A stretch of 64,000 bases of DNA, taken from the NCBI RefSeq assembly GCF_000971115.1, contig NZ_BBLV01000002.1:62001-126000 (forward strand). The letters are read 5' to 3'. Below the pieces are notes generated by a model, which was not told where the DNA came from, did not search any database, and was given only the letters and a program-made list of their open reading frames with translations. Shown here piece after piece: positions 4,015-60,624 of the stretch. This DNA comes from Demequina gelatinilytica. GTDB taxonomy: Bacteria > Actinomycetota > Actinomycetes > Actinomycetales > Demequinaceae. The stretch's first letter is position 1. Each line of letters starts with the position of its first letter. A program made the translations under genes and the position numbers.

Positions 4015-4794
4015 TTACTCTCCTCGCTCGATCTGACGCTGGCCCAGGTACCAGGCGAGCATCCGGTTCTCGACCACCTTGAACACGGCGGCGAGCAGGA
4101 CACCGATGAGGCCGAGCAGGATCACGCCCGTCCACATCTGGGGGATGGCGAAGCTCCTCTGGAACTGGACGATCGCGGCACCGAGGCCGCGGTTGGCCCC
4201 GAACAGCTCCGAGATGACCATGAGGATCACGCCGATGGACAGGGCCTGACGGGCACCCGTGAAGATGCGGGGGCTCGCCCCGGGAAGGACCACGAACACG
4301 AGGCGGCGCCACCTGCTGAGGTGATAGCTGCGTGCCGTGTCGCCCAGCACGGGCTCGAGCCCGCGGACGCCCTCGACCGTGTTGAGGAGGATCGGCCAGA
4401 GGCATCCGAGCGCGATGGTGATGATCTTGCCGAGCCAGCCGGTGTAGCCGGCGAACAGCGCGATGATCGGGACCAGCACCGGGGGCGGCACGGCGCGGAA
4501 GAACTCGAGGACCGGCTCCGACAGGGCGCGCAGGGTCGGCGACAGACCGATCGCGGTGCCCAGGACGATGCCGAGCACCACGGCGATGCCGAAGCCGATG
4601 CCCAGACGGGCGAGCGACGGGAACACGTCGGCGACGATGCGGTCCCAGGTCCATGTGGTGGGGAACGTCTCGATGATCGTGGACAGCGGCGGCCAGAAGG
4701 GATCCGTGGAGCTCGCCGAGCCGAACCACCACGCGGTCAGCAGGATCGCGGGGAGCCCGACGGCATAGCCCGCCGCCTTGAGGAACCTGGTCAT
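4015..4794 (-). CDS. ABC transporter permease 1 (SsuC/TauC type)
   Basis: A 259-residue inner-membrane protein with about six hydrophobic spans. The EAA-type cytoplasmic loop is visible as DTARSYHLSRWRRLVFVVLPGASPRI (about residues 150-175). The ATG overlaps the TGA of the second permease gene (ATGA at 4791-4794), so the two are translationally coupled. Its sequence differs clearly from permease 2, which suggests a heterodimeric channel rather than the homodimer usual in sulfonate importers. The substrate is inferred from context only. Confidence 0.9.
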   Translation of the reverse strand: MTRFLKAAGYAVGLPAILLTAWWFGSASSTDPFWPPLSTIIETFPTTWTWDRIVADVFPSLARLGIGFGIAVVLGIVLGTAIGLSPTLRALSEPVLEFFRAVPPPVLVPIIALFAGYTGWLGKIITIALGCLWPILLNTVEGVRGLEPVLGDTARSYHLSRWRRLVFVVLPGASPRIFTGARQALSIGVILMVISELFGANRGLGAAIVQFQRSFAIPQMWTGVILLGLIGVLLAAVFKVVENRMLAWYLGQRQIERGE

Positions 4795-35525: not shown

Positions 35526-35558
35526 GGACGATGCAGGGCTCGCGCCCGGCATCGTCCC
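35525..35558. terminator. bidirectional terminator made of two inverted GGGACGATGC words
   Basis: GGGACGATGC (35525-35534) and GCATCGTCCC (35549-35558) pair perfectly. The loop itself can form GGGC/GCCC. It lies between the convergent DUF4032 and rlmB genes and begins at the DUF4032 stop codon. Confidence 0.8.
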
Positions 35559-40354: not shown

Positions 40355-40414
40355 CCCGGCGGCTCCGCCACGCAGCTGAACCACCGCATCGTTCCTTAAC
40401 AGGCGTGATGCGAA

Positions 40415-40453
40415 GCAAGAAGGGCCGATGCGCGACGCATCGGCCCTTCTTGC
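40415..40453. terminator. bidirectional terminator between lipoprotein gene and pstB
   Basis: A 17-bp perfect stem (GCAAGAAGGGCCGATGC with its complement) encloses a 5-nt loop between two convergent stops. Confidence 0.93.
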
Positions 40454-40483
40454 GTGGCGGAGCCGCTGGGGCTCGCCGGCGGA

Positions 40484-44736: not shown

Positions 44737-44779
44737 CCGAAGTGGTACCTGGTGGTCGGTCCTGGGAGATCTCCGCGCC

Positions 44780-44834
44780 GCAGTGGTGCCTGGTGGTCGC
44801 CCCGGCGGTCGGGGCGGCAACCAGGCACCACTGC
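44780..44834 (-). terminator. long hairpin, probable terminator of the senX3-regX3-like operon
   Basis: GCAGTGGTGCCTGGT (44780-44794) and ACCAGGCACCACTGC (44820-44834) pair perfectly for 15 bp, and a further about 8 pairs (CGCCCC/GGGGCG) close the inner loop. It starts 53 bp after the response-regulator stop. Confidence 0.7.
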
Positions 44835-44886
44835 GAGCCCGCGATCCGCGAGATGCGACAAGGACCCACCACTTCCGGTGGGCCGC

Positions 44887-47490: not shown

Positions 47491-47503
47491 CGCGGCCCGC
47501 ACG

Positions 47504-47541
47504 CGCGGAAGGCCCCGACCGGACGGTCGGGGCCTTCCGCG
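47504..47541 (+). terminator. phoU terminator
   Basis: A perfect 17-bp stem (CGCGGAAGGCCCCGACC and complement) with loop GGAC lies 14 bp after the phoU stop. It may serve both convergent genes. Confidence 0.92.
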
Positions 47542-47567
47542 TTCCCGGGGACGATGCGGGCCGCAGC

Positions 47568-49373: not shown

Positions 49374-49469
49374 GACAGTCGCAACGGAGTTCGCCTGGAC
49401 GATGCGGCGTGTCGCCCAATTCCGGGCCCGACACGCCGCGCGATCGGGACCGACTCCGTTGGGAGTGTC
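49374..49469. repeat. 95-bp palindromic intergenic repeat, copy A
   Basis: Ends GACAGTCGCAACGGAGT / ACTCCGTTGGGAGTGTC. The inner arms are GCGGCGTGTCG and CGACACGCCGC, in the reverse order to copies C-E. It lies between the divergent gpmA and arsR-like genes and contains one GGACGATGC word. Confidence 0.85.
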
Positions 49470-49513
49470 GGAAGCGGGTGCGAGGGCACCGGGACCACGG
49501 TCCCGGACCTGGA

Positions 49514-49527
49514 TACCCCCACGGGTA
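49514..49527. promoter_or_regulatory. TACCCC-N3-GGGTA operator before the ArsR-type gene
   Basis: An imperfect palindrome 13-26 bp upstream of the ArsR-type ATG, closely like the sites at 55903-55917 and 56320-56333 near the CsoR-family/CoA-disulfide-reductase genes. Confidence 0.6.
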
Positions 49528-49539
49528 CACACTTCAAAT

Positions 49540-49872
49540 ATGGCTCAATCGTCCACGGCCTCCCTCACCCTGCGGGCCGCACCCCCGCGCGACCCCCCAG
49601 CGGCCGTGGCGCTGCTCCAGGCCGCCGCGGACCCCGTCCGCTGGACCGTGCTCGCGCGCCTGGCCGACGGGCCCCGCTGCGTGTGCGACCTCCAGGAGCA
49701 TGTCGACGTGTCGAGCACGCTGCTGAGCTACCACCTGCGGATCCTCCGCGACGCGGAGCTGGTCACCGCGACCCGCCGCGGCCGCTGGATCGACTATGCG
49801 CTGGCGCCCGACGCATCGTCCCGCCTCACCGAGGCGCTGCCCGCGCCCGCCCGCGACCTCGGGGGCGCGTGA
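49540..49872 (+). CDS. ArsR-family transcriptional regulator
   Basis: 110 residues, winged helix. Cys47 and Cys49 in RCVCDLQEHVDVSSTLLSYHLRILRDAELV form the CxC metal/metalloid (alpha-3) motif of ArsR-type sensors. SYHLRILRDAELVTATRRGRWIDYAL is the recognition helix and wing. It is coupled by TGATG to a DUF318 permease gene and then a thioredoxin-like gene, an arrangement seen for arsenic or thiol stress. The operator overlap with the nearby persulfide-type sites is discussed in the findings. Confidence 0.9.
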   Translation: MAQSSTASLTLRAAPPRDPPAAVALLQAAADPVRWTVLARLADGPRCVCDLQEHVDVSSTLLSYHLRILRDAELVTATRRGRWIDYALAPDASSRLTEALPAPARDLGGA

Positions 49873-50927
49873 TGGCGGTGATGGAGCGCGTGCACCGCGC
49901 GACCCCGCTCGAGCGGTGGGCCGGGCTGGGCGCCGCGGCGCTGGGATGGTGGGCGCTGTACTCCGTCAACCTCCCGTTCTGGGACTGGCTCCTGCGCGAC
50001 GTGGTGGGCCTCGACCTCGAGACCCGGCTGGGCTCCGGCATCCACTTCTTCCTCTACGACACCGTCAAGATCCTGCTGCTGCTCGCGGGGATCATCTTCC
50101 TCGTCACGGTGCTGCGCTCCTTCATGTCGGTCGAGCGCACGCGCGCAATCCTGGGCGGCAGGCGCGAGGGCGTGGGCAATGTGGCCGCCGCGGCGCTCGG
50201 GGTGGTCACCCCGTTCTGCTCGTGCTCGGCCGTGCCGGCGTTCATCGGCTTCGTGGCGGCCGGCGTCCCGGTGGGCGTCACCCTGAGCTTCCTCATCGCG
50301 AGCCCGCTGGTGAACGAGGTCGCGATCGCGCTGCTGCTCGGGCTGTTCGGCTGGGGTCCCACTCTCCTCTACATCGGGGCCGGGCTGACCATCGCGATCG
50401 TCGCCGGCTTCATCCTCGGCCGCATGCGACCCGAGCGCTGGATCGAGCCCTTCGTCTTCGAGACCACGCTGGGCGGCCAGGCGGTCGACCCCGGCTACGC
50501 GCTGACATGGAACGACCGCGTCCAGATGGGCCTCGAGGAGGTCCGGGACATCCTCAAGAAGATCTGGCCGTACCTGCTGGTGGGGATCGGCATCGGTGCG
50601 GCGATCCACGGCTGGGCGCCCGAGCAGTGGTTCGCGGACCACGCGGGCCCTGAGAACCTGCTCGCCGTCCCGCTCGCCGTGCTGCTGGGCGTGCCGCTGT
50701 ACTCGAACGCCGCCGGCGTGCTCCCGATGGTCGAGGCGCTGTTCGACAAGGGTCTGCCCATGGGCACCCTGCTCGCCTTCATGATGGCGACGGTCGCGCT
50801 CAGCCTGCCCGAGATGATCCTGCTGCGCCGCGTGCTCAAGCCGCAGCTCATCGGGCTCTTCATCGCCGTCGTCACCGTCGGCATCGTCGCCGTCGGCTAC
50901 CTCTTCAACGCCGTCCTCCCCGCCTGA
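49872..50927 (+). CDS. DUF318/YraQ-family permease (ArsP-like)
   Basis: 351 residues with about eight membrane spans in two homologous halves. The family motif GVVTPFCSCSAVPAFIGFVAAGVPVG (CxC in a membrane segment) is complete, and the second half has VPLYSNAAGVLPMVEALFDKGLPMGTLLAFMMATVALSLPEMI. The CxC-containing branch includes ArsP, which exports trivalent organoarsenicals; other members have no known cargo. It is coupled to the ArsR-type gene by one shared base. Confidence 0.9.
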   Translation: MAVMERVHRATPLERWAGLGAAALGWWALYSVNLPFWDWLLRDVVGLDLETRLGSGIHFFLYDTVKILLLLAGIIFLVTVLRSFMSVERTRAILGGRREGVGNVAAAALGVVTPFCSCSAVPAFIGFVAAGVPVGVTLSFLIASPLVNEVAIALLLGLFGWGPTLLYIGAGLTIAIVAGFILGRMRPERWIEPFVFETTLGGQAVDPGYALTWNDRVQMGLEEVRDILKKIWPYLLVGIGIGAAIHGWAPEQWFADHAGPENLLAVPLAVLLGVPLYSNAAGVLPMVEALFDKGLPMGTLLAFMMATVALSLPEMILLRRVLKPQLIGLFIAVVTVGIVAVGYLFNAVLPA

Positions 50928-50949
50928 CACCACCCGAAAGGACAACGCC

Positions 50950-51189
50950 ATGCACATCAAGATCCTGGGCCCCGGCTGCACCAACTGCGCGAACCTCGAG
51001 CGCGTCACGCGCGAGGCCGCCGCGGAGCTGGGCCTCGACGCCACCTTCGAGAAGGTCACCGACTACGGCGCGATCGCCGGCTACGGCGTCATGCGCACGC
51101 CCGGCCTGGTGGTCGACGAGGCGCTGCTCATGTCGGGCCGCGTCCCCACCGCATCGGCCGTCAAGGAGCTGCTCGCGCCGCTCGCCTGA
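50950..51189 (+). CDS. small thioredoxin-like redox protein (TM0996/MTH895 type)
   Basis: 79 residues, a minimal thioredoxin fold with active site GPGCTNC (Cys10, Cys13) and a cis-Pro region VMRTPGLVVDEAL. The last 20 residues (SGRVPTASAVKELLAPL) are the typical ending of the small-redox-protein family usually found beside DUF318 permeases. AAAGGA precedes the ATG by 7 nt. It is probably the thiol reductant for the permease cargo or sensor. Confidence 0.92.
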   Translation: MHIKILGPGCTNCANLERVTREAAAELGLDATFEKVTDYGAIAGYGVMRTPGLVVDEALLMSGRVPTASAVKELLAPLA

Positions 51190-51218
51190 TCCGGGCGGAT
51201 ACCTGGGCGGAAGAGCGG

Positions 51219-52286
51219 TCAGACCTCGATGACGCAGGCCGGGCTCGCGACCTCGCCCACCGCATGCGGCAGGTCGACGACCTCGCCCACCCCCAGCTCG
51301 GGCGGCATCCCGATGACGTCGGCGAGCGCGTACGACCGCACCCGGTGCCCACGCTCCTCCCCCACCACGAGCCTGTCGCCCAGCGCCGCGAAGTACCGCG
51401 GCCAGTGCCCGGCGTCGAAGGCGCCGCGGTAGGCGAGCTCGCCCTCGGGAGCGACGTCGAAGATCGAGATCACGTCCGCGCCGCGCACGGACACGAGCAG
51501 CACGTCGCCCGTGTGCCCGCGCGTGAGCGCGACGTGCGCGTCCTGGAGCTCCGCGCTGCGGGGCGGGGCCAGGGTGGAGGGCCGCTCGGCGATGACCTCC
51601 GCGGTGGACGATGCACCGTCCCAGCGGAGCGTCCGCACCTGGTGGTCCAGCTCGCACGTGACGTACAGCAGGCTGCCCCGCACCGCGAGGTGGCGCGGTC
51701 CGGCACCGGGCGGCAGCACGGCGGCGATGCCGTCCGGCTCGAGCAGGCCGTCGTCGAGGATCCGGTAGCGGCGCAGCTGGTCGGTGCCGAGGTCCGCGAC
51801 GAGCACATGCCGCCCGCCCGGCGCGAGCGCCGCCGAGTGCGCGTGCGGCGCCTCTTGGCGGTCGGCGTTCGGCCCCGAGCCGGCGTGCCCCAGCAGCTGG
51901 GCGGGAGCATCCCCCACCGGCAGCCCGTCCTGGTCGAGCGGGACCACAGCGAGGTGCCCGCTCGAGTAGTGGCTCACGTACAGCGTCCGCGCGTCGACCG
52001 ACAGGAGCAGGTGGCAAGCATCAGCACCTCCGGTCACCAGACGGGTGACGAGGCGCGGGGCCGCAGGGCGGCTCACGTCGAGCACGGCGACCTCGCTCGC
52101 GGGCAGCTCGCATGCCGCGTAGACGAGCGGCAGCGTCGGGTGCGCGATCAGGAAGGAGGGCGCGGGCAGCGCGAGCACCTGCTCCGAGGCGACCGACTCA
52201 GGGGTGGCGGACCGCCAGATGCCTTCCCCGAGCCCGGCCGGGGTGCCGAGCCCCGCGACCGGGTAGGTGCCCCAGAGGAGCGTCAC
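51219..52286 (-). CDS. lactonase-family seven-bladed beta-propeller protein
   Basis: 355 residues matching the 6-phosphogluconolactonase (Pgl/YbhE) propeller family: repeated blades with PSFLIAHPTLPLVYAACE, DACHLLLSVDARTLYVSHYSSG, HSAALAPGGRHVLVADLGTDQLRRY and GPRHLAVRGSLLYVTCELDHQVR. The GTG start at 52286 overlaps the lsr2 TGA (GTGA). Actual lactonase activity is untested for many family members. It is read as the second gene after lsr2. Confidence 0.88.
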   Translation of the reverse strand: MTLLWGTYPVAGLGTPAGLGEGIWRSATPESVASEQVLALPAPSFLIAHPTLPLVYAACELPASEVAVLDVSRPAAPRLVTRLVTGGADACHLLLSVDARTLYVSHYSSGHLAVVPLDQDGLPVGDAPAQLLGHAGSGPNADRQEAPHAHSAALAPGGRHVLVADLGTDQLRRYRILDDGLLEPDGIAAVLPPGAGPRHLAVRGSLLYVTCELDHQVRTLRWDGASSTAEVIAERPSTLAPPRSAELQDAHVALTRGHTGDVLLVSVRGADVISIFDVAPEGELAYRGAFDAGHWPRYFAALGDRLVVGEERGHRVRSYALADVIGMPPELGVGEVVDLPHAVGEVASPACVIEV

Positions 52287-52606
52287 TGCGCGGCGTCGTA
52301 GGCCTCGCGGACCTTCGACGGGATGCGCCCGCGCTCGGGGACGTCGACGCCGTTCTCCTTCGCCCATGCGCGGACGGCGGCGGGCGCGGGTCCCGATCCG
52401 GACTTGCGCGCACGGGCGGGAGCCTTGCGCGTCGCCGTGCGACGGCCGGCAGCGATCCACGGCGCGAGCGCGTCACGGAGCTTCTGAGCGTTGCCCTCGG
52501 TGAGGTCGATCTCGTAGGACGACCCGTCGAGGGAGAACGACACGGTCTCGGATGCGGCGGTGCCGTCGATGTCGTCGACCAGGACCACCTGAACCTTCTG
52601 CGCCAC
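52283..52606 (-). CDS. lsr2: Lsr2 nucleoid-associated protein
   Basis: 107 residues: an N-terminal dimerisation domain (AQKVQVVLVDDIDGTAASETVSFSLDGSSYEIDL) and a C-terminal DNA-binding domain with the AT-hook-like RGR in VRAWAKENGVDVPERGRIPSKVREAY. Lsr2 is the actinobacterial H-NS analogue that silences AT-rich DNA. The GTG start at 52606 follows GGAAGGGA. The 267-bp region upstream is noticeably AT-richer than its surroundings, consistent with self-binding. Confidence 0.96.
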   Translation of the reverse strand: MAQKVQVVLVDDIDGTAASETVSFSLDGSSYEIDLTEGNAQKLRDALAPWIAAGRRTATRKAPARARKSGSGPAPAAVRAWAKENGVDVPERGRIPSKVREAYDAAQ

Positions 52607-52873
52607 AGCAGTTCCCTTCCTCAGCATGTGCCCCTGATATTCGCATTCGGGACACGTGCGCGTCAATTGCGCTCCAGGCGATTATCGGGTCGAGTTTCGG
52701 AGGCGAATCCGCGGCATTTCCCAAAATGCGGCGACGGACGCCGATAATCGCGGCGCGCCCGCACGCGAACGGCGCGGGATCACAGCGTTCGGCCAGGTCG
52801 TTGCCTTACGCGCATCGCCCCGGTAGCGTGCGGAGCCGGGCCATTCCGGGGCCACGCATCTGACGGAGGGTGA
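52607..52873. other. AT-richer intergenic region upstream of lsr2
   Basis: No gene. It contains several short AT-rich patches (for example CCTGATATTCGCATTCGG, GGCGATTATCGGG, CATTTCCCAAAATGC, GCCGATAATCG). It should hold the lsr2 promoter and, on the other strand, the promoter of the small membrane protein; TAGCGT at 52826-52831 is a candidate -10 box for the latter. Confidence 0.6.
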
Positions 52874-53062
52874 ATGCTGACCGAGCTGCGCGCCGCGAGC
52901 GCCCTGAGCCTTATCGCGGCGATCTCCGTCGCGTTCTCCCAGATCCCTGCGCTCGAAGGTGTCGCGGCGGCGCTGTGGCTCCTGTCCTTCGCGTGCGTGG
53001 TCGGCGCCGGGGTGCTCGCCTACGCCGCGGAGAACCAGGCTCCTCGGCACTCGGCTCGCTGA
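52874..53062 (+). CDS. small two-span membrane protein, unknown
   Basis: 62 residues, almost entirely two hydrophobic helices (ALSLIAAISVAFSQIPALEGVAAALWLLSFACVVGAGVLAYAA) with a short polar tail. GGAGGGTGA lies immediately before the ATG, a strong ribosome site that argues for a real gene. No function can be assigned. Confidence 0.7.
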   Translation: MLTELRAASALSLIAAISVAFSQIPALEGVAAALWLLSFACVVGAGVLAYAAENQAPRHSAR

Positions 53063-53081
53063 GCCGAGGCCCGCCCGAGCC

Positions 53082-53273
53082 TCAGGCCTGCGCGGGGCTC
53101 CCCGGCTGCGCCGACCGGGGCGCCTCGCCCGCCTCGTCCCCCGCCTCGGCAGCAGCGAGCGCCGCGCGCTCGTTGCGATCCGCACGGATCACCGCGCGCA
53201 TCACGTACCAGAACAGCGCACCCACGCCGATCGACGGGATGACACCCACCAGCACCTGCTGCCAGATCGGCAT
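53082..53273 (-). CDS. small single-span membrane protein downstream of lysS
   Basis: 63 residues: one membrane span (QVLVGVIPSIGVGALFWYVMRAVI) and a charged, Ala/Glu-rich tail. The ATG is one base beyond the lysS stop, so it is translated from the lysS mRNA. Similar small proteins follow lysS in related actinobacteria. Function unknown. Confidence 0.78.
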   Translation of the reverse strand: MPIWQQVLVGVIPSIGVGALFWYVMRAVIRADRNERAALAAAEAGDEAGEAPRSAQPGSPAQA

Positions 53274-53274
53274 G

Positions 53275-56224
<2,950 letters not shown>

Positions 56225-56318
56225 GATCCGCGCCGCGGCGTCGCCAGGCGTAGCCTGGAACGGCGCCCCACCAGGCGCATCGTCCCCGTCAGGAAACCCT
56301 CGGGACCAAGGTCGGAAT

Positions 56319-56334
56319 ATACCCCCCGGGGTAT
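56319..56334. promoter_or_regulatory. CsoR/CstR-type operator before the CoA-disulfide reductase gene
   Basis: TACCCC-CC-GGGGTA (56320-56333) with flanking A/T. A TAGCCT -10 box follows at 56339-56344, so the site overlaps the -35/spacer region. Confidence 0.8.
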
Positions 56335-56375
56335 CTGTTAGCCTGGTTCACGAACTTTCGACGGAAGGACATCGC

Positions 56376-58058
56376 ATGCGCATCCTGGTGATCGGTGGAG
56401 TGGCGGGCGGCATGAGCGCCGCGGCCCGGGCACGCCGGCTCAACGAGCAGGCCGAGATCATCGTGTTCGAGAAGGGCAAGTACGTCTCCTTCGCGAACTG
56501 CGGGCTCCCGTACCACGTGGGCGGCGAGATCGAGCAGGACTCGTACCTGCTGCTCCACTCCCCCGCCTCGCTCAAGGCGGAGCTCGACCTCGACGTCCGC
56601 ATCGAGCACGAGGTCATCAGCATCGACCGCGAGGCGCAGACCGTCCTGGTCGCGACCCCGGCCGGCACCGAGACCTTCGAGTACGACGCGCTCGTGCTCT
56701 CCCCCGGCGCGGACGCCATCGTCCCGCCCATCCCCGGCGTCGACCTCCCGCAGGTCACTCACCTGCGCACCGTCGACGAGGCGCGCGAGCTCGCCGCCCG
56801 CACGGCGACCGCCAAACGCGCCGTCGTCATGGGCGCCGGCTTCATCGGCCTCGAGACGGCCGAGGCGTTCCGCCACCGCGGCCTCGAGGTCACGCTCGTC
56901 GAGCTCGCGCCTCAGGTGCTCCCGCCGCTCGCGCCCGAGATGAGCGCGCTCGTGGAGAAGGAGCTGCGCGCGCACGGCGTCGACGTCCGCACCGGCGTCG
57001 CCGCGACGGGGATCCGCGAGGGCGGGGACGATGCGGCGGTCACCGTGACGCTCGGCGACGGCACGGAGGTAGCCGCCGACATCGTCGTGATGTCGGTGGG
57101 CGTGAGGCCCAACACCGCGCTCGCCGCCGAGGCCGGCCTCGAGCTGACCGACCGCGGCGCGATCCTGGTCGACTCGCTGCAGCAGACGTCCGACCCGCAC
57201 ATCTGGGCCGCCGGCGACGCGATCGCCGTGCGCCACGGCGTCACCGGCCAGGTGGGCCCCGTGCCGCTCGCCGGACCGGCGAACCGCCAGGGCCGCCGCG
57301 CCGCGGACTCGATCATGGGCCGCGTCGACCAGGCGCAGCCCGTGCTGGGCACCGCCATCGTGCGCGCCTTCGGGCTCACCGCTGCCATGACGGGCGCCTC
57401 GCCCCGCATGCTCGACGCGGCCGGCATCGAGTACTTCGTGGTCCACACCCACCCGGGCAACCACGCCGGCTACTACCCCGGCTCGCAGATCCTGCACCTC
57501 ATGGGCGTGTTCTCACCCGAGGGCAAGCTGCTCGGCGCGCAGGCCGTGGGCCCCGACGGCGCCGACAAGCGCATCGATGTGCTCGCGACCGCGCTGCGCG
57601 CCGGCATGGACGTCGACGACATCGCGGAGCTCGAGCTCGCGTACGCGCCGCCGTTCGGCTCGGCGAAGGACCCGGTCAACATGCTCGGCTTCCTCGCGCA
57701 GAACGTGGTCAACGGCACCACCAAGGTGTGGCGCTTCCAGGACCTCGACTGGGCGCGCGAGAACGCGCTGCTCATCGACGTCCGCTCGGAGCGCGAGTAC
57801 GCGATGGGCCACCTTCCCGAGGCGCTCAACCTCCCGCACACGCACATCCGTGAGTACATCGAGGGCGTCAAGCAGATGGCTGCCGGCCGTCCGGTGCGCG
57901 TGCTGTGCGCCTCGGGCGTCCGCTCCTACTACGCGCACCGCGTGCTCGCGCAGCACGGCCTCGACTCCGCGACGCTCGACGGCGGCATGTTCACGCTGGT
58001 CGAGGCGGTCCCGGGTCTCGAGCTCGCGACGGGGGCGTTCCAGCCGGCGAACGCCTGA
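56376..58058 (+). CDS. CoA-disulfide (persulfide) reductase with C-terminal rhodanese domain
   Basis: 560 residues. A FAD/NAD(P)H disulfide oxidoreductase module (1 to about 450) has VIGGVAGGMSAAARARRL, active Cys42 in FANCGLPYHVGG, a second dinucleotide motif VVMGAGFIGLETAEAF and the FAD end motif IWAAGDA. A rhodanese module (about 460-550) follows with catalytic Cys511 in VLCASGVRSYYAH. CoADR-RHD enzymes reduce CoA persulfides/disulfides and release sulfide. The regulator-operator arrangement upstream points to induction by reactive sulfur. AAGGA lies 8 nt before the ATG. Confidence 0.93.
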   Translation: MRILVIGGVAGGMSAAARARRLNEQAEIIVFEKGKYVSFANCGLPYHVGGEIEQDSYLLLHSPASLKAELDLDVRIEHEVISIDREAQTVLVATPAGTETFEYDALVLSPGADAIVPPIPGVDLPQVTHLRTVDEARELAARTATAKRAVVMGAGFIGLETAEAFRHRGLEVTLVELAPQVLPPLAPEMSALVEKELRAHGVDVRTGVAATGIREGGDDAAVTVTLGDGTEVAADIVVMSVGVRPNTALAAEAGLELTDRGAILVDSLQQTSDPHIWAAGDAIAVRHGVTGQVGPVPLAGPANRQGRRAADSIMGRVDQAQPVLGTAIVRAFGLTAAMTGASPRMLDAAGIEYFVVHTHPGNHAGYYPGSQILHLMGVFSPEGKLLGAQAVGPDGADKRIDVLATALRAGMDVDDIAELELAYAPPFGSAKDPVNMLGFLAQNVVNGTTKVWRFQDLDWARENALLIDVRSEREYAMGHLPEALNLPHTHIREYIEGVKQMAAGRPVRVLCASGVRSYYAHRVLAQHGLDSATLDGGMFTLVEAVPGLELATGAFQPANA

Positions 58059-58074
58059 CCCTCCGCGACAGCCC

Positions 58075-58169
58075 GACAGCGGCAACGGATCTCGAACCGA
58101 CACGCCGCATCGTCCCCCCTGGGGGCGGTGCGGCGTCGGCGTGTCGGGACCAGCTCCGTTGCGCCTGTC
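58075..58169. repeat. 95-bp palindromic intergenic repeat, copy C
   Basis: Ends GACAGCGGCAACGGATCTCG / AGCTCCGTTGCGCCTGTC. The inner arms CGACACGCCG / CGGCGTGTCG enclose GCATCGTCCCCCC. It lies between the convergent CDR and nadB stops and could act as a terminator for both. Confidence 0.88.
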
Positions 58170-58193
58170 GGGGCGGGGCGGGCGACCGCGCCG

Positions 58194-59888
58194 CTACTCG
58201 CCCAGCTCGAGCGGCGCCTTCGCGAACACCAGCGTGCCGTCGGGATCCAGCCGAGCCGCGAGACGCACCGCCCACTCGTCATCGGTCGCCGGGAAGTCGG
58301 ACCGCTGATGCCCGCCGCGCGACTCCTCGCGCCGCAGCGCCGCCTCGCACAGCACCGACGCCGTCGCGACGATGTTCGTGGCCTCCCACTCCGCCACCTG
58401 CGGCATCACGGTGGTGACCGGCTCGGTGTGGAACCGCGCACGGATGCGATCCAGCCGCGCGACGGCGTCGTCGAGCCCGTCGCCGTCGCGGACCGGCCCT
58501 GCGCCCTCGTGCGCGATCGCCTGGACGCGCGGGCGCATCGTCGCCGGGACCAGGGCGGACTCCCCCACCCGCTCGACGGGTTCGAGCTGCGGGAGCACGC
58601 CGTCCGCGACCATCGCGGCGGCGTCGCGCGCCGCCCGGCGGGCGAACACGAGCCCCTCGAGCAGGGAGTTCGACGCGAGGCGGTTGGCACCGTGGACCCC
58701 GGTGCAGGCCGCCTCGCCGATCGCGTAGAGGCCCTTCTGGGTCGACCGTCCGGAGAGGTCGGTGAGGATGCCGCCCGAGTGGAAGTGCTGCGCCGGCGCG
58801 ACCGGGATGAGGTCGTTGGCCATGTCGAGGCCGTGCTCCTTGAGCGACGCCCAGATCGACGGGAAGCGCTTCTTGAGGAAGCCCCGCTCGAGGTGGCGGC
58901 AGTCGAGGAAGACCGAGTCCGACTCCTCCTCGCGCATCACGTCGACGATGTTGCGGCTCACCACGTCGCGGGGCGCGAGCTCGGCGAGCTCGTGGCGACC
59001 GACCATGAACCGCTCGCCCGCGCCGTTGAGCAGGTAGGCGCCCTCCCCGCGGACCGCCTCGGAGATGAGGGGGAGCTGGCCGCGCGCATTCGCACCCTGC
59101 CACAGCACGGTGGGGTGGAACTGCACGAACTCGACGTCCGCCACCGCCGCACCGGCGCGCAGCGCCGCCGCGAGGCCGTCTCCCGTGGAGGATGCGGGAT
59201 TGGTCGACGAGCGGAACACCTGACCGATGCCGCCTGTCGCGAACACCACGGCCTTGGCGAGCGCCGCCCCCACGCCGTCGCGCGATCCCTCGCCGATCAC
59301 GTGGATGGTCGCGCCGCAGACCGGGCCGGGACGGCCGTCGGCGTCGGGAGCGCCCGTGAGCAGGTCGACCACCATGGCGTGCTCGATGACCTCGATGCCG
59401 GGGTCGTTGCGGATGGCCTCGAGCTGCTCGACCAGCGCGCGGGAGACCTCCGCGCCGGTCGCATCGCCTCCCGCGTGGACGATGCGGTCGCGGTGGTGGC
59501 CGCCCTCGCGCGTCAGGGTGAGGTCGCCGTTGGGGCCGGTGTCGAACTGCGCGCCGCGGCGCAGGAGCTTGCGGATGGAGTGCGGCCCCTCGGTCACCAG
59601 GACGCGCACGGCCTCCTCGGAGCACAGCCCCACCCCGGCGACGAGCGTGTCCTCGAGGTGCTCCTCGGGGGTGTCCTCCGGGTCCAGCGCCGCCGCGATG
59701 CCGCCCTGCGCCCACACGGTGGATCCCGAGCTCAGCAGGCCCTTGGTCACCACGAGCACGCGGTCCACCCGCTCACGCAGGTCCAGCGCGGTGGTGAGCC
59801 CGGCGATGCCGGACCCCACCACGATGACGTCGGTCTCGATGGTCCAGCCGGGCTGAGGCGCGGCAAGGCTGCGCACGAAGGCGGTCAT
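58194..59888 (-). CDS. nadB: L-aspartate oxidase
   Basis: 564 residues, FAD flavoprotein of the succinate-dehydrogenase/aspartate-oxidase family: VIVVGSGIAGLTTALDL, SSGSTVWAQGGIAAAL, EFVQFHPTVLW, HFHSGGILTDLSGRST and LYAIGEAACTGVHGANRLASNSLLEGLVF. It oxidises L-aspartate to iminoaspartate, the first NAD-synthesis step. A TAGCCT -10 box ends 7 nt before the ATG at 59888 (leaderless), so the gene can be expressed independently of panD. No nadA is visible. Confidence 0.95.
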   Translation of the reverse strand: MTAFVRSLAAPQPGWTIETDVIVVGSGIAGLTTALDLRERVDRVLVVTKGLLSSGSTVWAQGGIAAALDPEDTPEEHLEDTLVAGVGLCSEEAVRVLVTEGPHSIRKLLRRGAQFDTGPNGDLTLTREGGHHRDRIVHAGGDATGAEVSRALVEQLEAIRNDPGIEVIEHAMVVDLLTGAPDADGRPGPVCGATIHVIGEGSRDGVGAALAKAVVFATGGIGQVFRSSTNPASSTGDGLAAALRAGAAVADVEFVQFHPTVLWQGANARGQLPLISEAVRGEGAYLLNGAGERFMVGRHELAELAPRDVVSRNIVDVMREEESDSVFLDCRHLERGFLKKRFPSIWASLKEHGLDMANDLIPVAPAQHFHSGGILTDLSGRSTQKGLYAIGEAACTGVHGANRLASNSLLEGLVFARRAARDAAAMVADGVLPQLEPVERVGESALVPATMRPRVQAIAHEGAGPVRDGDGLDDAVARLDRIRARFHTEPVTTVMPQVAEWEATNIVATASVLCEAALRREESRGGHQRSDFPATDDEWAVRLAARLDPDGTLVFAKAPLELGE

Positions 59889-59895
59889 GAGGGCC

Positions 59896-59901
59896 AGGCT
59901 A
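59896..59901 (-). promoter_or_regulatory. -10 box (TAGCCT) of nadB, leaderless type
   Basis: Ends 7 nt before the ATG at 59888. Confidence 0.6.
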
Positions 59902-59943
59902 CCGGCGACGATGCGGGACCCTCGCCGCGCCCCTCCCTCTCCG

Positions 59944-60038
59944 GACAGTCGCAACGGATCTCGGATCGACACGCCGCGTCAGCCGGCACGATGCGCCCGG
60001 ACGGCCCGCGTGTCGCGGCGAGATCCGTTGCGGCTGTC
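59944..60038. repeat. 95-bp palindromic intergenic repeat, copy D
   Basis: Ends GACAGTCGCAACGGATCTCG / CGAGATCCGTTGCGGCTGTC, nearly perfect over 20 bp (one mismatch). Inner arms are CGACACGC / GCGTGTCG. The right end supplies two bases of the panD TGA stop. Confidence 0.9.
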
Positions 60039-60510
60039 AGGACGGGGAGGCGGGGTAGGCGTCCCAGCCCTGCGTGTGGAACCCGTGCACCGGCAGGCCC
60101 GAGGGCTCGAGCCCGGCGGCGTTGTCCGGGACCAGCCCGGGCTCGTCGGAGAGCTCGACCACGCGGTTGGCGCCGTCGACGAAGACCACATGCGGCTCGA
60201 AGGTCCGCGCCTCGGCATCGGCCAGCATGCCGTAACCGATGATGATCACCAGGTCGCCCTCGGTGATGAGGTGCGCGGCCGCGCCGTTGATGCACAGCAC
60301 CCCCGAGCCGCGCTCACCCGGGATCGCGTACGTGGTGAGCCGCGCGCCGTTGGTGACGTCGACGATGTCCACCTGCTGCCCGGGCAGCAGATCCGCCGCC
60401 TCCATGAGGTCGACGTCGATGGTGACGGACCCCACGTAGTGGAGGTCCGCCTGGGTCACGGTGGCCCGGTGGATCTTGGAGATCATCATCGGGCGCTGAA
60501 GCGAGGTCAT
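60037..60510 (-). CDS. panD: aspartate 1-decarboxylase (pyruvoyl-dependent)
   Basis: 157 residues. The self-cleavage site is Gly27-Ser28 in [15 protein letters not shown], producing the pyruvoyl group; [20 protein letters not shown] and [13 protein letters not shown] complete the double-psi barrel. It makes beta-alanine for pantothenate. AGAAGG lies 7 nt before the ATG. The C-terminal about 30 residues extend beyond the usual about 127-residue family length, up to a stop codon formed by repeat D. Confidence 0.94.
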
Positions 60511-60529
60511 GAGAAGCCTTCTGACTCTG

Positions 60530-60624
60530 GACAGCACGAACGGAGTTCGCCGTGACACGCCGGGGATCGGGTCACTATGCGCCGGCCGGCCCGGCGTGTC
60601 GGGACCAGCTCCGTTGGGGCTGTC
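60530..60624. repeat. 95-bp palindromic intergenic repeat, copy E
   Basis: Ends GACAGCACGAACGGAGTTCG / AGCTCCGTTGGGGCTGTC. Inner arms GACACGCCGGG / CCCGGCGTGTC form a 10- to 11-bp stem. It lies between panC and panD on the same strand. Confidence 0.9.

Follow-up and report, generated by a model that had tools for sequence, protein, structure and literature searches.

A dispersed family of 95-bp palindromes at gene ends in Demequina gelatinilytica: lineage-specific arms and a possible role as duplex-DNA sites

The stretch of 64,000 nucleotides analyzed here (the window, positions 62001-126000 of contig C31) belongs to the 3.23-Mb genome of Demequina gelatinilytica (G000). It contains five imperfect palindromes of about 95 bp, copies A to E, which are members of a family dispersed over 53 places of this genome. 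The copies possess two inverted half-sites of nearly fixed geometry and their arms do not covary. Their motifs and spacing are conserved when single loci are followed between species, most of them lie just behind stop codons, and the sequence of their arms depends on the lineage within the genus. The interpretation preferred here, which is offered tentatively, is that the palindromes are duplex-DNA sites for a putative multimeric protein and would act as boundaries at transcript ends.

A dispersed family of constant geometry

The arm pattern GACAGN4AACGGA is found 65 times in G000 versus once for the reversed pattern, which places the palindromes far beyond chance. All 65 exact arms fall inside elements of 94-97 bp. 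Both arms could be read in 43 copies, after removal of 2 overlapping artefacts from 45 finds; their lengths are 94 bp (2 copies), 95 bp (29), 96 bp (11) and 97 bp (1). A covariance model built from these 43 copies matches 53 places in the genome at E<=0.01, including one partial match, and two of its weakest matches bear a TTCG-type arm. The first-pass annotation had described the five copies of the window as a family, and this family proves to be dispersed, with many further members. The annotation would have taken the five copies for chance-like palindromes had there been no further copies and no compensatory changes in the arms; compensatory changes are indeed absent, yet further copies abound and the elements are not chance-like. 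Thirteen of the 53 places are located on contig C31 (255 kb; 5.7 expected). Regional clustering on this contig was rejected as not significant (chi-square over 14 contigs, p=0.07), and a Poisson test on the remaining contigs is post hoc, the 14 contigs having been chosen as copy-bearing.

The architecture can be summarized as follows. A half-site consists of GACA (positions 1-4), N5, AACGGA (10-15), N8 and CGACACGCCG (24-33), and two half-sites in inverted orientation flank a centre which measures about 29 bp. The ends are GACA in nearly all copies of G000. In some halves the inner motif is reversed and shifted inwards, often behind GGTCCCGG; reversed inner motifs are seen in window copies A and B. 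When classed by the base at position 19, the two halves are unlike in 31 of the 43 copies, alike with C in both in 11 and alike without C in 1. For independent halves, about 20, 16 and 6 copies would be expected (reckoned by hand from these counts), so that the halves are mixed beyond expectation. The sequence before the arms is rich in pyrimidines and that behind them in purines. The pyrimidine content reaches 77% on 32 convergent flanks; in 24 tandem copies it is 80% towards the stop and 72% on the opposite side, and behind 160 other genes it is 50%. Since this composition differs from that of other gene ends, the flanking tracts seem to be part of the element. One copy containing N was excluded from the flank tests. 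A longer stem formed by complementary flanks was also considered and rejected (pairing at one base in 18/42 copies, shuffled mean 18.3). Beside the ends of the 42 copies, no direct repeat of 2-9 bp was observed, and for 2 bp the mean over shuffles is 0.15; this test for target duplication took the ends at GACA/TGTC, and a longer true element would need a separate test.

Motif conservation without covariation

The suggestion of a selected stem structure in the first-pass annotation is not supported by the alignment of the copies. RNAalifold proposes 12 pairs, none with a compensatory change. Left-right pairing in the 42 distinct copies amounts to 114/210 at positions 5-9 (shuffled mean 114.2) and to 124/336 at positions 16-23 (shuffled mean 146.6). 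When all 33 arm pairs are imposed, the covariation score is 0.104 versus 0.120 for shuffled data, and 485 of 500 shuffles reach the observed value. The copies therefore do not look like selected stems. With Rfam 15 at the gathering score, the window yields two tRNAs and an msiK RNA element only (RF01747, 32693-32749, 63 bits), and the palindromes match no family.

Orthologous places were compared with two sister species, D. subtropica NBRC 109396 (G011; its NadB is 97% identical to that of G000) and D. iriomotensis (G002). The 44 syntenic comparison rows, 35 present and 9 absent, correspond to 26 and 7 distinct comparisons, 9 duplicate rows among the 35 having been removed before the test on 26 pairs. 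Of the 33 distinct comparisons, 26 thus show a copy at the corresponding place, in a sample biased to presence as most sister loci were fetched via the arm pattern. Recent mobility is accordingly not supported for most compared copies. Two of the seven absences concern D. subtropica and five D. iriomotensis. On reading, the place holds another palindrome or different arms in five of the seven, retains the core and one arm in one (L012/L135), and carries a shortened element missed by the finder in another (L019/L121).

The distribution of changes within the retained copies is uneven. In the 19 D. subtropica pairs, changed positions number 0/152 in GACA, 4/226 in AACGGA and 16/376 in the inner motif, versus 35/190 in N5-9, 43/301 in N16-23, 68/554 in the centre, 71/533 in flank 1-15 and 431/5114 in flank 16-150. 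The corresponding values in the 7 D. iriomotensis pairs are 0/56, 2/84 and 8/140 for the motifs, 38/70, 27/109 and 66/198 for the two spacers and the centre, and 38/173 and 229/1836 for the flanks. Gapped positions are also rarer in the elements than in flank 1-15 (10 vs 37 for D. subtropica, 8 vs 37 for D. iriomotensis). In order to correct for ascertainment, only the halves not used in finding a copy were retained (31 halves from 22 pairs); over both sisters, 18/619 motif positions and 84/400 spacer positions are changed (Fisher p=6e-21, pairs that share one G000 copy being statistically non-independent). Evolution maintains the motifs and their spacing, not folding power. As a separate observation, two G000 copies 1.7 kb apart (L023:2502-2596 and 4218-4312) are identical while their D. 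subtropica counterparts differ, which may reflect either local homogenisation or copying.

Location relative to genes

Gene calls from a crude codon-usage script were used for all position counts. The 43 copies are located between convergent (16), tandem (25) or divergent genes (2), as compared with 20, 61 and 20 for all gaps of at least 60 bp in the same loci, copy-bearing gaps included. When the 2 divergent copies are set aside, the distance from stop to element lies between -2 and 27 nt in 48 of 56 cases, with a median of 14, and seven of these stops are TGA codons formed by a T and the GA of the element end. The 40 neighboring proteins scanned (30 of the 48 ending beside copies outside the window and 10 from the window) display no functional theme; they are diverse household proteins and a few without match.

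Inverted repeats were also surveyed in the window gaps, retaining the best repeat per gap and leaving out two gaps >500 bp. In 4 of the 5 gaps that hold an element, this best repeat coincides with it, and none exceeds shuffles in the gap of copy B. Of the 21 other non-divergent gaps measured, 8 contain a short-loop hairpin that lies above each of the 20 shuffles, for example at 47491-47567 (18-bp stem, loop of 2). A long imperfect inverted repeat occupies 44739-44875 (66-nt arms, 71% complementary, 5-nt loop) in a gap of 386 bp.

The five copies of the window are listed in Table 1; their positions and lengths agree with the first-pass annotation, and B to E are located downstream of gene ends. 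That none lies in a coding region also holds, with the nuance that the ends of B and D form part of the TGA stops of nadC and panD. Inner CGACACGCC arms had been claimed for all five, and the inverted layout was recovered in C, D and E; in D and E a single base of one of the two arms is altered. Copies A and B are laid out differently: the inner pair of A is inside out (GGCGTGTCG...CGACACGCC), and the inner motifs of B are direct repeats, the left one being CGACACACC.

Table 1. Palindromic elements of the window (coordinates from the first letter of the window)
Copy	Position	Length	Genetic context
A	49374..49469	96 bp	between divergent pgm (-) and ArsR-type gene (+)
B	54824..54918	95 bp	directly behind nadC, before lysS, both genes -
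C	58075..58169	95 bp	between 3' ends of oxidoreductase/rhodanese gene (+) and nadB (-)
D	59944..60038	95 bp	directly behind panD, before nadB, genes -
E	60530..60624	95 bp	21 nt behind panC stop, before panD, genes -

Copies A, B and C possess orthologues in D. subtropica locus L164. Copy A contains GGACGATGC at 49397. Copy C, which is 16 and 24 nt from the stops of the pyridine-nucleotide-disulphide oxidoreductase/rhodanese gene and nadB, differs from its orthologue at 2 of 95 bases. At the places of both B and C, D. iriomotensis carries a different palindrome. At the place of copy D, D. subtropica displays a palindrome with GGCTCCGCCACAC arms and D. iriomotensis an AACGGA-type element. Orthologues of copy E are present in both sisters, and on reading no element is found at this panC-panD place in G043, G049, G024, G017, G044 (D. 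maris), G006, G022 and G048.

Lineage-specific arms

Matches to the covariance model of the G000 arms were obtained at E<=0.001 in 34 of 44 Demequina genomes, a count which underestimates genomes with other arms. The strict half-element pattern retrieved 53 stretches from a collection of 84,980 species, all of them Demequina, and none from viral contigs. Copy D gave no match among 72,556 plasmid records. A loose inner pattern retrieved 11 stretches from viral contigs, and on reading these lack the outer arms of the family. The inner pair CGACACGCCG-N18..45-CGGCGTGTCG occurs in 9 of 11 genus members and in 10 of 138 other genomes from the order, versus 2 of 149 genomes for its reversed control. 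Palindromes with an inner CGACACGCCG pair and different outer arms are seen in other genera of the order (L204-L208, L209, L221). In G032, with outer arms such as GTGGGTGCA, five inner-pair instances are 38-bp cores, and an open frame of at least 240 nt, without gene call, ends 18-62 bases before each of the five.

Across Demequina the arms form lineage dialects. GACAGN4AACGGA arms number 65 in G000, 61 in G011, 41 in G002, 4 in G022, 1 in G024 and 0 in G017, and TTCGCTNNGCACGG arms number 44 in G049, 40 in G017, 29 in G024, 12 in G044, 10 in G002, 2 in G000 and 0 in G011. In further counts, for which copies were located by their centre, the GACA..GCACGG type accounts for 18/18 arms in G021 and 17/18 in G054, and for 11/24 in G041 and 6/14 in G006 beside GACG, GATG, ATTG or TCCG variants. 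The TTCG..GCACGG type accounts for 14/20 arms in G049, 10/16 in G017 and 9/18 in G044, which also has 7 AACGG arms. GAACC-type arms are found in G015, G045, G014 and G055; in a three-protein tree with a midpoint root these genomes fall outside a 14-genome clade holding the other dialects, the forks within that clade being mostly unresolved. In G024, several contig ends (contigs C5, C6, C7 and C12) also have a TTCG-type arm no more than about 200 bases away, and such sites may break assemblies.

Dialects can be compared at single loci. One locus has orthologous flanks on either side in G006, G024, G041 and G049; its centre retains CCATTCTC in these four genomes, and its outer quartet varies among them. 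A similar centre is present in G002 at a place outside the comparison. D. subtropica carries GGCTCCGCCACAC-type arms at panD-nadB and at a second place, where G000 has AACGGA arms. A second palindrome type lies between convergent genes at 40355-40474 of the window, with arms GGCGGCTCCGCCACGCA/TGCGTGGCGGAGCCGC and an inverted GGCCGATGC pair inside, and similar arms replace the AACGGA type at two D. subtropica places. Certain centres recur: GGACACGTTCACA-type centres occupy three or more loci across six genomes, and centres similar to that of copy C occur three times in G021 and once in G041, each time at a different place.

A 9-mer at the dyad centre

The 9-mer GGACGATGC or a near variant is contained in 21 of the 43 copies, and in 16 of these it starts at positions 42-44, the dyad centre. 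It is not restricted to the palindromes. In 239 kb it reaches 14.5 times the third-order Markov expectation (125 sites, 115 of them with full context outside elements), and genome-wide it amounts to 680+670 = 1,350 sites, without strand bias, versus 17 for the reversed control. The window holds 41 sites, in genes and gaps and on both strands; two of them, at 35526 and 35549, pair into a hairpin at a gene end. Asp-Asp-Ala contexts are encoded with GACGAT in 54 of 80 cases, although GAT represents 10.4% of Asp codons. Other Demequina species prefer GGCCGATGC instead. In G015, GGCCGATGC is counted 2,018 times (reversed control 110) and GGACGATGC 202 times; in G000, GGCCGATGC is counted 447 times (control 124). 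On reading, the centres use the GGCCGATGC dialect in 5/6 copies of G015 and 2/2 of G045. To our knowledge, GGACGATGC would be the first signal of this kind in Actinobacteria, if active in uptake; the literature titles and abstract openings searched mention no actinobacterial uptake signal. By analogy, GGACGATGC and GGCCGATGC look like an uptake-sequence-like dialect system, comparable in its numbers and dialects to the uptake sequences of Neisseriaceae (PMC3630211), and gene-end hairpins from paired uptake sequences (PMC1852404) offer a parallel to the 35526/35549 pair.

Possible functions

Each copy is best viewed as a duplex site of fixed geometry, with two inverted half-sites around the centre of about 29 bp, rather than as a folded strand. 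A putative multimeric DNA-binding protein most likely binds both halves, with a specificity that would shift between Demequina lineages. The bound complex would most likely be a boundary that stops or blocks the polymerase at transcript ends, as a roadblock terminator or an insulator. This role is proposed because most sites lie just behind stops, take up almost the whole gap and, where genes converge, are turned towards both of them. Several points weigh against it. No binding protein is known, and only two protein families were looked for, Y1_Tnp and DUF222-HNH; the latter, in 42/44 genomes with 0-10 matches, was rejected as partner since by eye its numbers do not follow those of the elements. 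Ten of 44 congeners lack a match to the own-arm model and G048 lacks a core-pattern match as well, so that the sites appear dispensable. Copy A and one further copy of the 43 are located between divergent genes, a 95-bp insert may simply be best tolerated at gene ends, and a small hairpin adjacent to but distinct from an element could have been overlooked, as the best repeat alone was kept for each gap. The recurrence of centres at several loci weighs somewhat in favor of copying in the past and against strict descent in place. The fold of four window copies and the pairing of the innermost positions, detailed below, keep a hairpin role among the candidates.

Another possibility, which we regard as rather unlikely, is that the family is selfish DNA resembling REPINs (doublets of repetitive extragenic palindromes, REPs) or miniature inverted-repeat transposable elements (MITEs), with a recombinase that would act in trans and be directed by the arms. 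The arms would then be kept since only intact copies move, and the dialects would follow the recombinase. Inverted arms, a variable interior, the extragenic location and patchy match numbers among congeners would fit such an origin, as would the other palindromes or arms at five of the seven absent sister places, the similar GGACACGTTCACA-type and copy C centres at different loci, the identical pair 1.7 kb apart and the presence or absence of an element at panC-panD. Against this, Y1_Tnp (PF01797) has no match at E<=0.001 in the 44 Demequina genomes, while control matches were obtained in 5 of 14 genomes, and the confinement of all 65 exact arms to 94-97 bp elements leaves no gene-carrying version in G000. 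The REP-associated tyrosine transposase (RAYT) or other transposase with matching ends which the first-pass annotation had envisaged was thus not recovered from these searches. No copy has a direct repeat of at least 2 bp at its ends (0/42), old orthologous copies retain their motifs while the spacers change, and neither plasmids (copy D) nor viral contigs (strict half pattern) gave a match. With respect to the mobile palindrome proposed in that annotation, the recurring centres support past copying, and recent movement is not supported for most compared copies.

The elements could also act as folded transcripts at mRNA 3' ends, as bidirectional terminators or 3'-end stabilisers, an option judged improbable. 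Their position behind stop codons would suit this role. Copies A, C, D and E fold better than shuffles (z -4.67 to -7.34) and innermost positions 34-46 pair in 244/546 cases versus 204.7, a value reached by none of 2000 shuffles. For copy B the fold does not exceed that of its shuffles (z -0.74 on one strand and -1.59 on the other). Against this role, the arms lack covariation, the length is constant with few indels, and in the 43 copies no T-run follows the arms, the right flank being purine-rich. The ordinary hairpins in 8 of 21 other non-divergent window gaps, with loops of 2-6 nt, are also unlike the elements. It is less probable still that the copies are landmarks for DNA uptake, spread and kept by biased natural transformation in the manner of uptake sequences with terminator pairs. 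The central 9-mer in 21 of 43 copies, 16 times at the dyad centre, its numbers, strand symmetry and dialects comparable to those of DNA uptake sequences, and the GGCCGATGC centres of G015 and G045 would agree with this analogy; 22 copies are devoid of the 9-mer, and the exact arms are confined to elements, unlike uptake sequences. A wider scheme, to which we give little credence, would have the putative protein and about 50 gene-end sites co-evolve as dialects across Demequina. The sites would be built on the genus's own 9-mer of uptake-sequence type, and transcript boundaries would in this way be connected to a biased exchange of DNA.

Relation to known palindromes

No description of a Demequina palindrome family was met in literature titles and abstract openings. 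REPINs, which are close to 100 bp in size and of high copy number, are nearest to the Demequina sites in look, and the REP-like analogy of the first-pass annotation is a fair one. The likeness extends to inverted conserved arms, a spacer between them and a dispersed extragenic location (PMC3116915). The Demequina sites differ in the absence of Y1/RAYT (44/44 genomes) and of a GTAG tag at the ends, in their nearly fixed length and in their actinobacterial host, and most compared copies are syntenic, with conserved motifs and unconserved spacers. GTAG/CGTC REPs are palindromes of 20-40 bp with GTAG or CGTC at one end, extragenic and in many cases downstream of coding regions (PMC3733652). The main text of that study does not contain the word Actinobacteria, and the host phyla it gives do not include them; in Demequina such an end tag was not met, CGTC occurring only inside the centre of some copies. 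MITEs are likewise small and non-coding with terminal inverted arms; the Demequina sites differ by the lack of target duplication (0/42) and by an interior not common to most copies, and no parent transposase with the same ends was found in G000, the only genome searched for it. Intrinsic terminators and paired uptake sequences (PMC1852404) are similarly located behind stops and have dyad symmetry; the Demequina sites differ by the long centre of most copies, the missing T-run and conserved arms without covariation. Integron attC sites were also considered and set aside.

Significance

Dispersed palindromes of bacteria are usually ascribed to RAYT transposases or to RNA hairpins. Neither fits the Demequina family well, given the absence of Y1 in 44 genomes, the lack of arm covariation and the retention of orthologous motifs. 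The species dialects constitute a natural experiment in the co-evolution of sites and protein, and the genomes which differ in dialect can be used in order to find the partner. If the sites do delimit transcripts, they would represent a protein-based class of terminators in high-GC bacteria.

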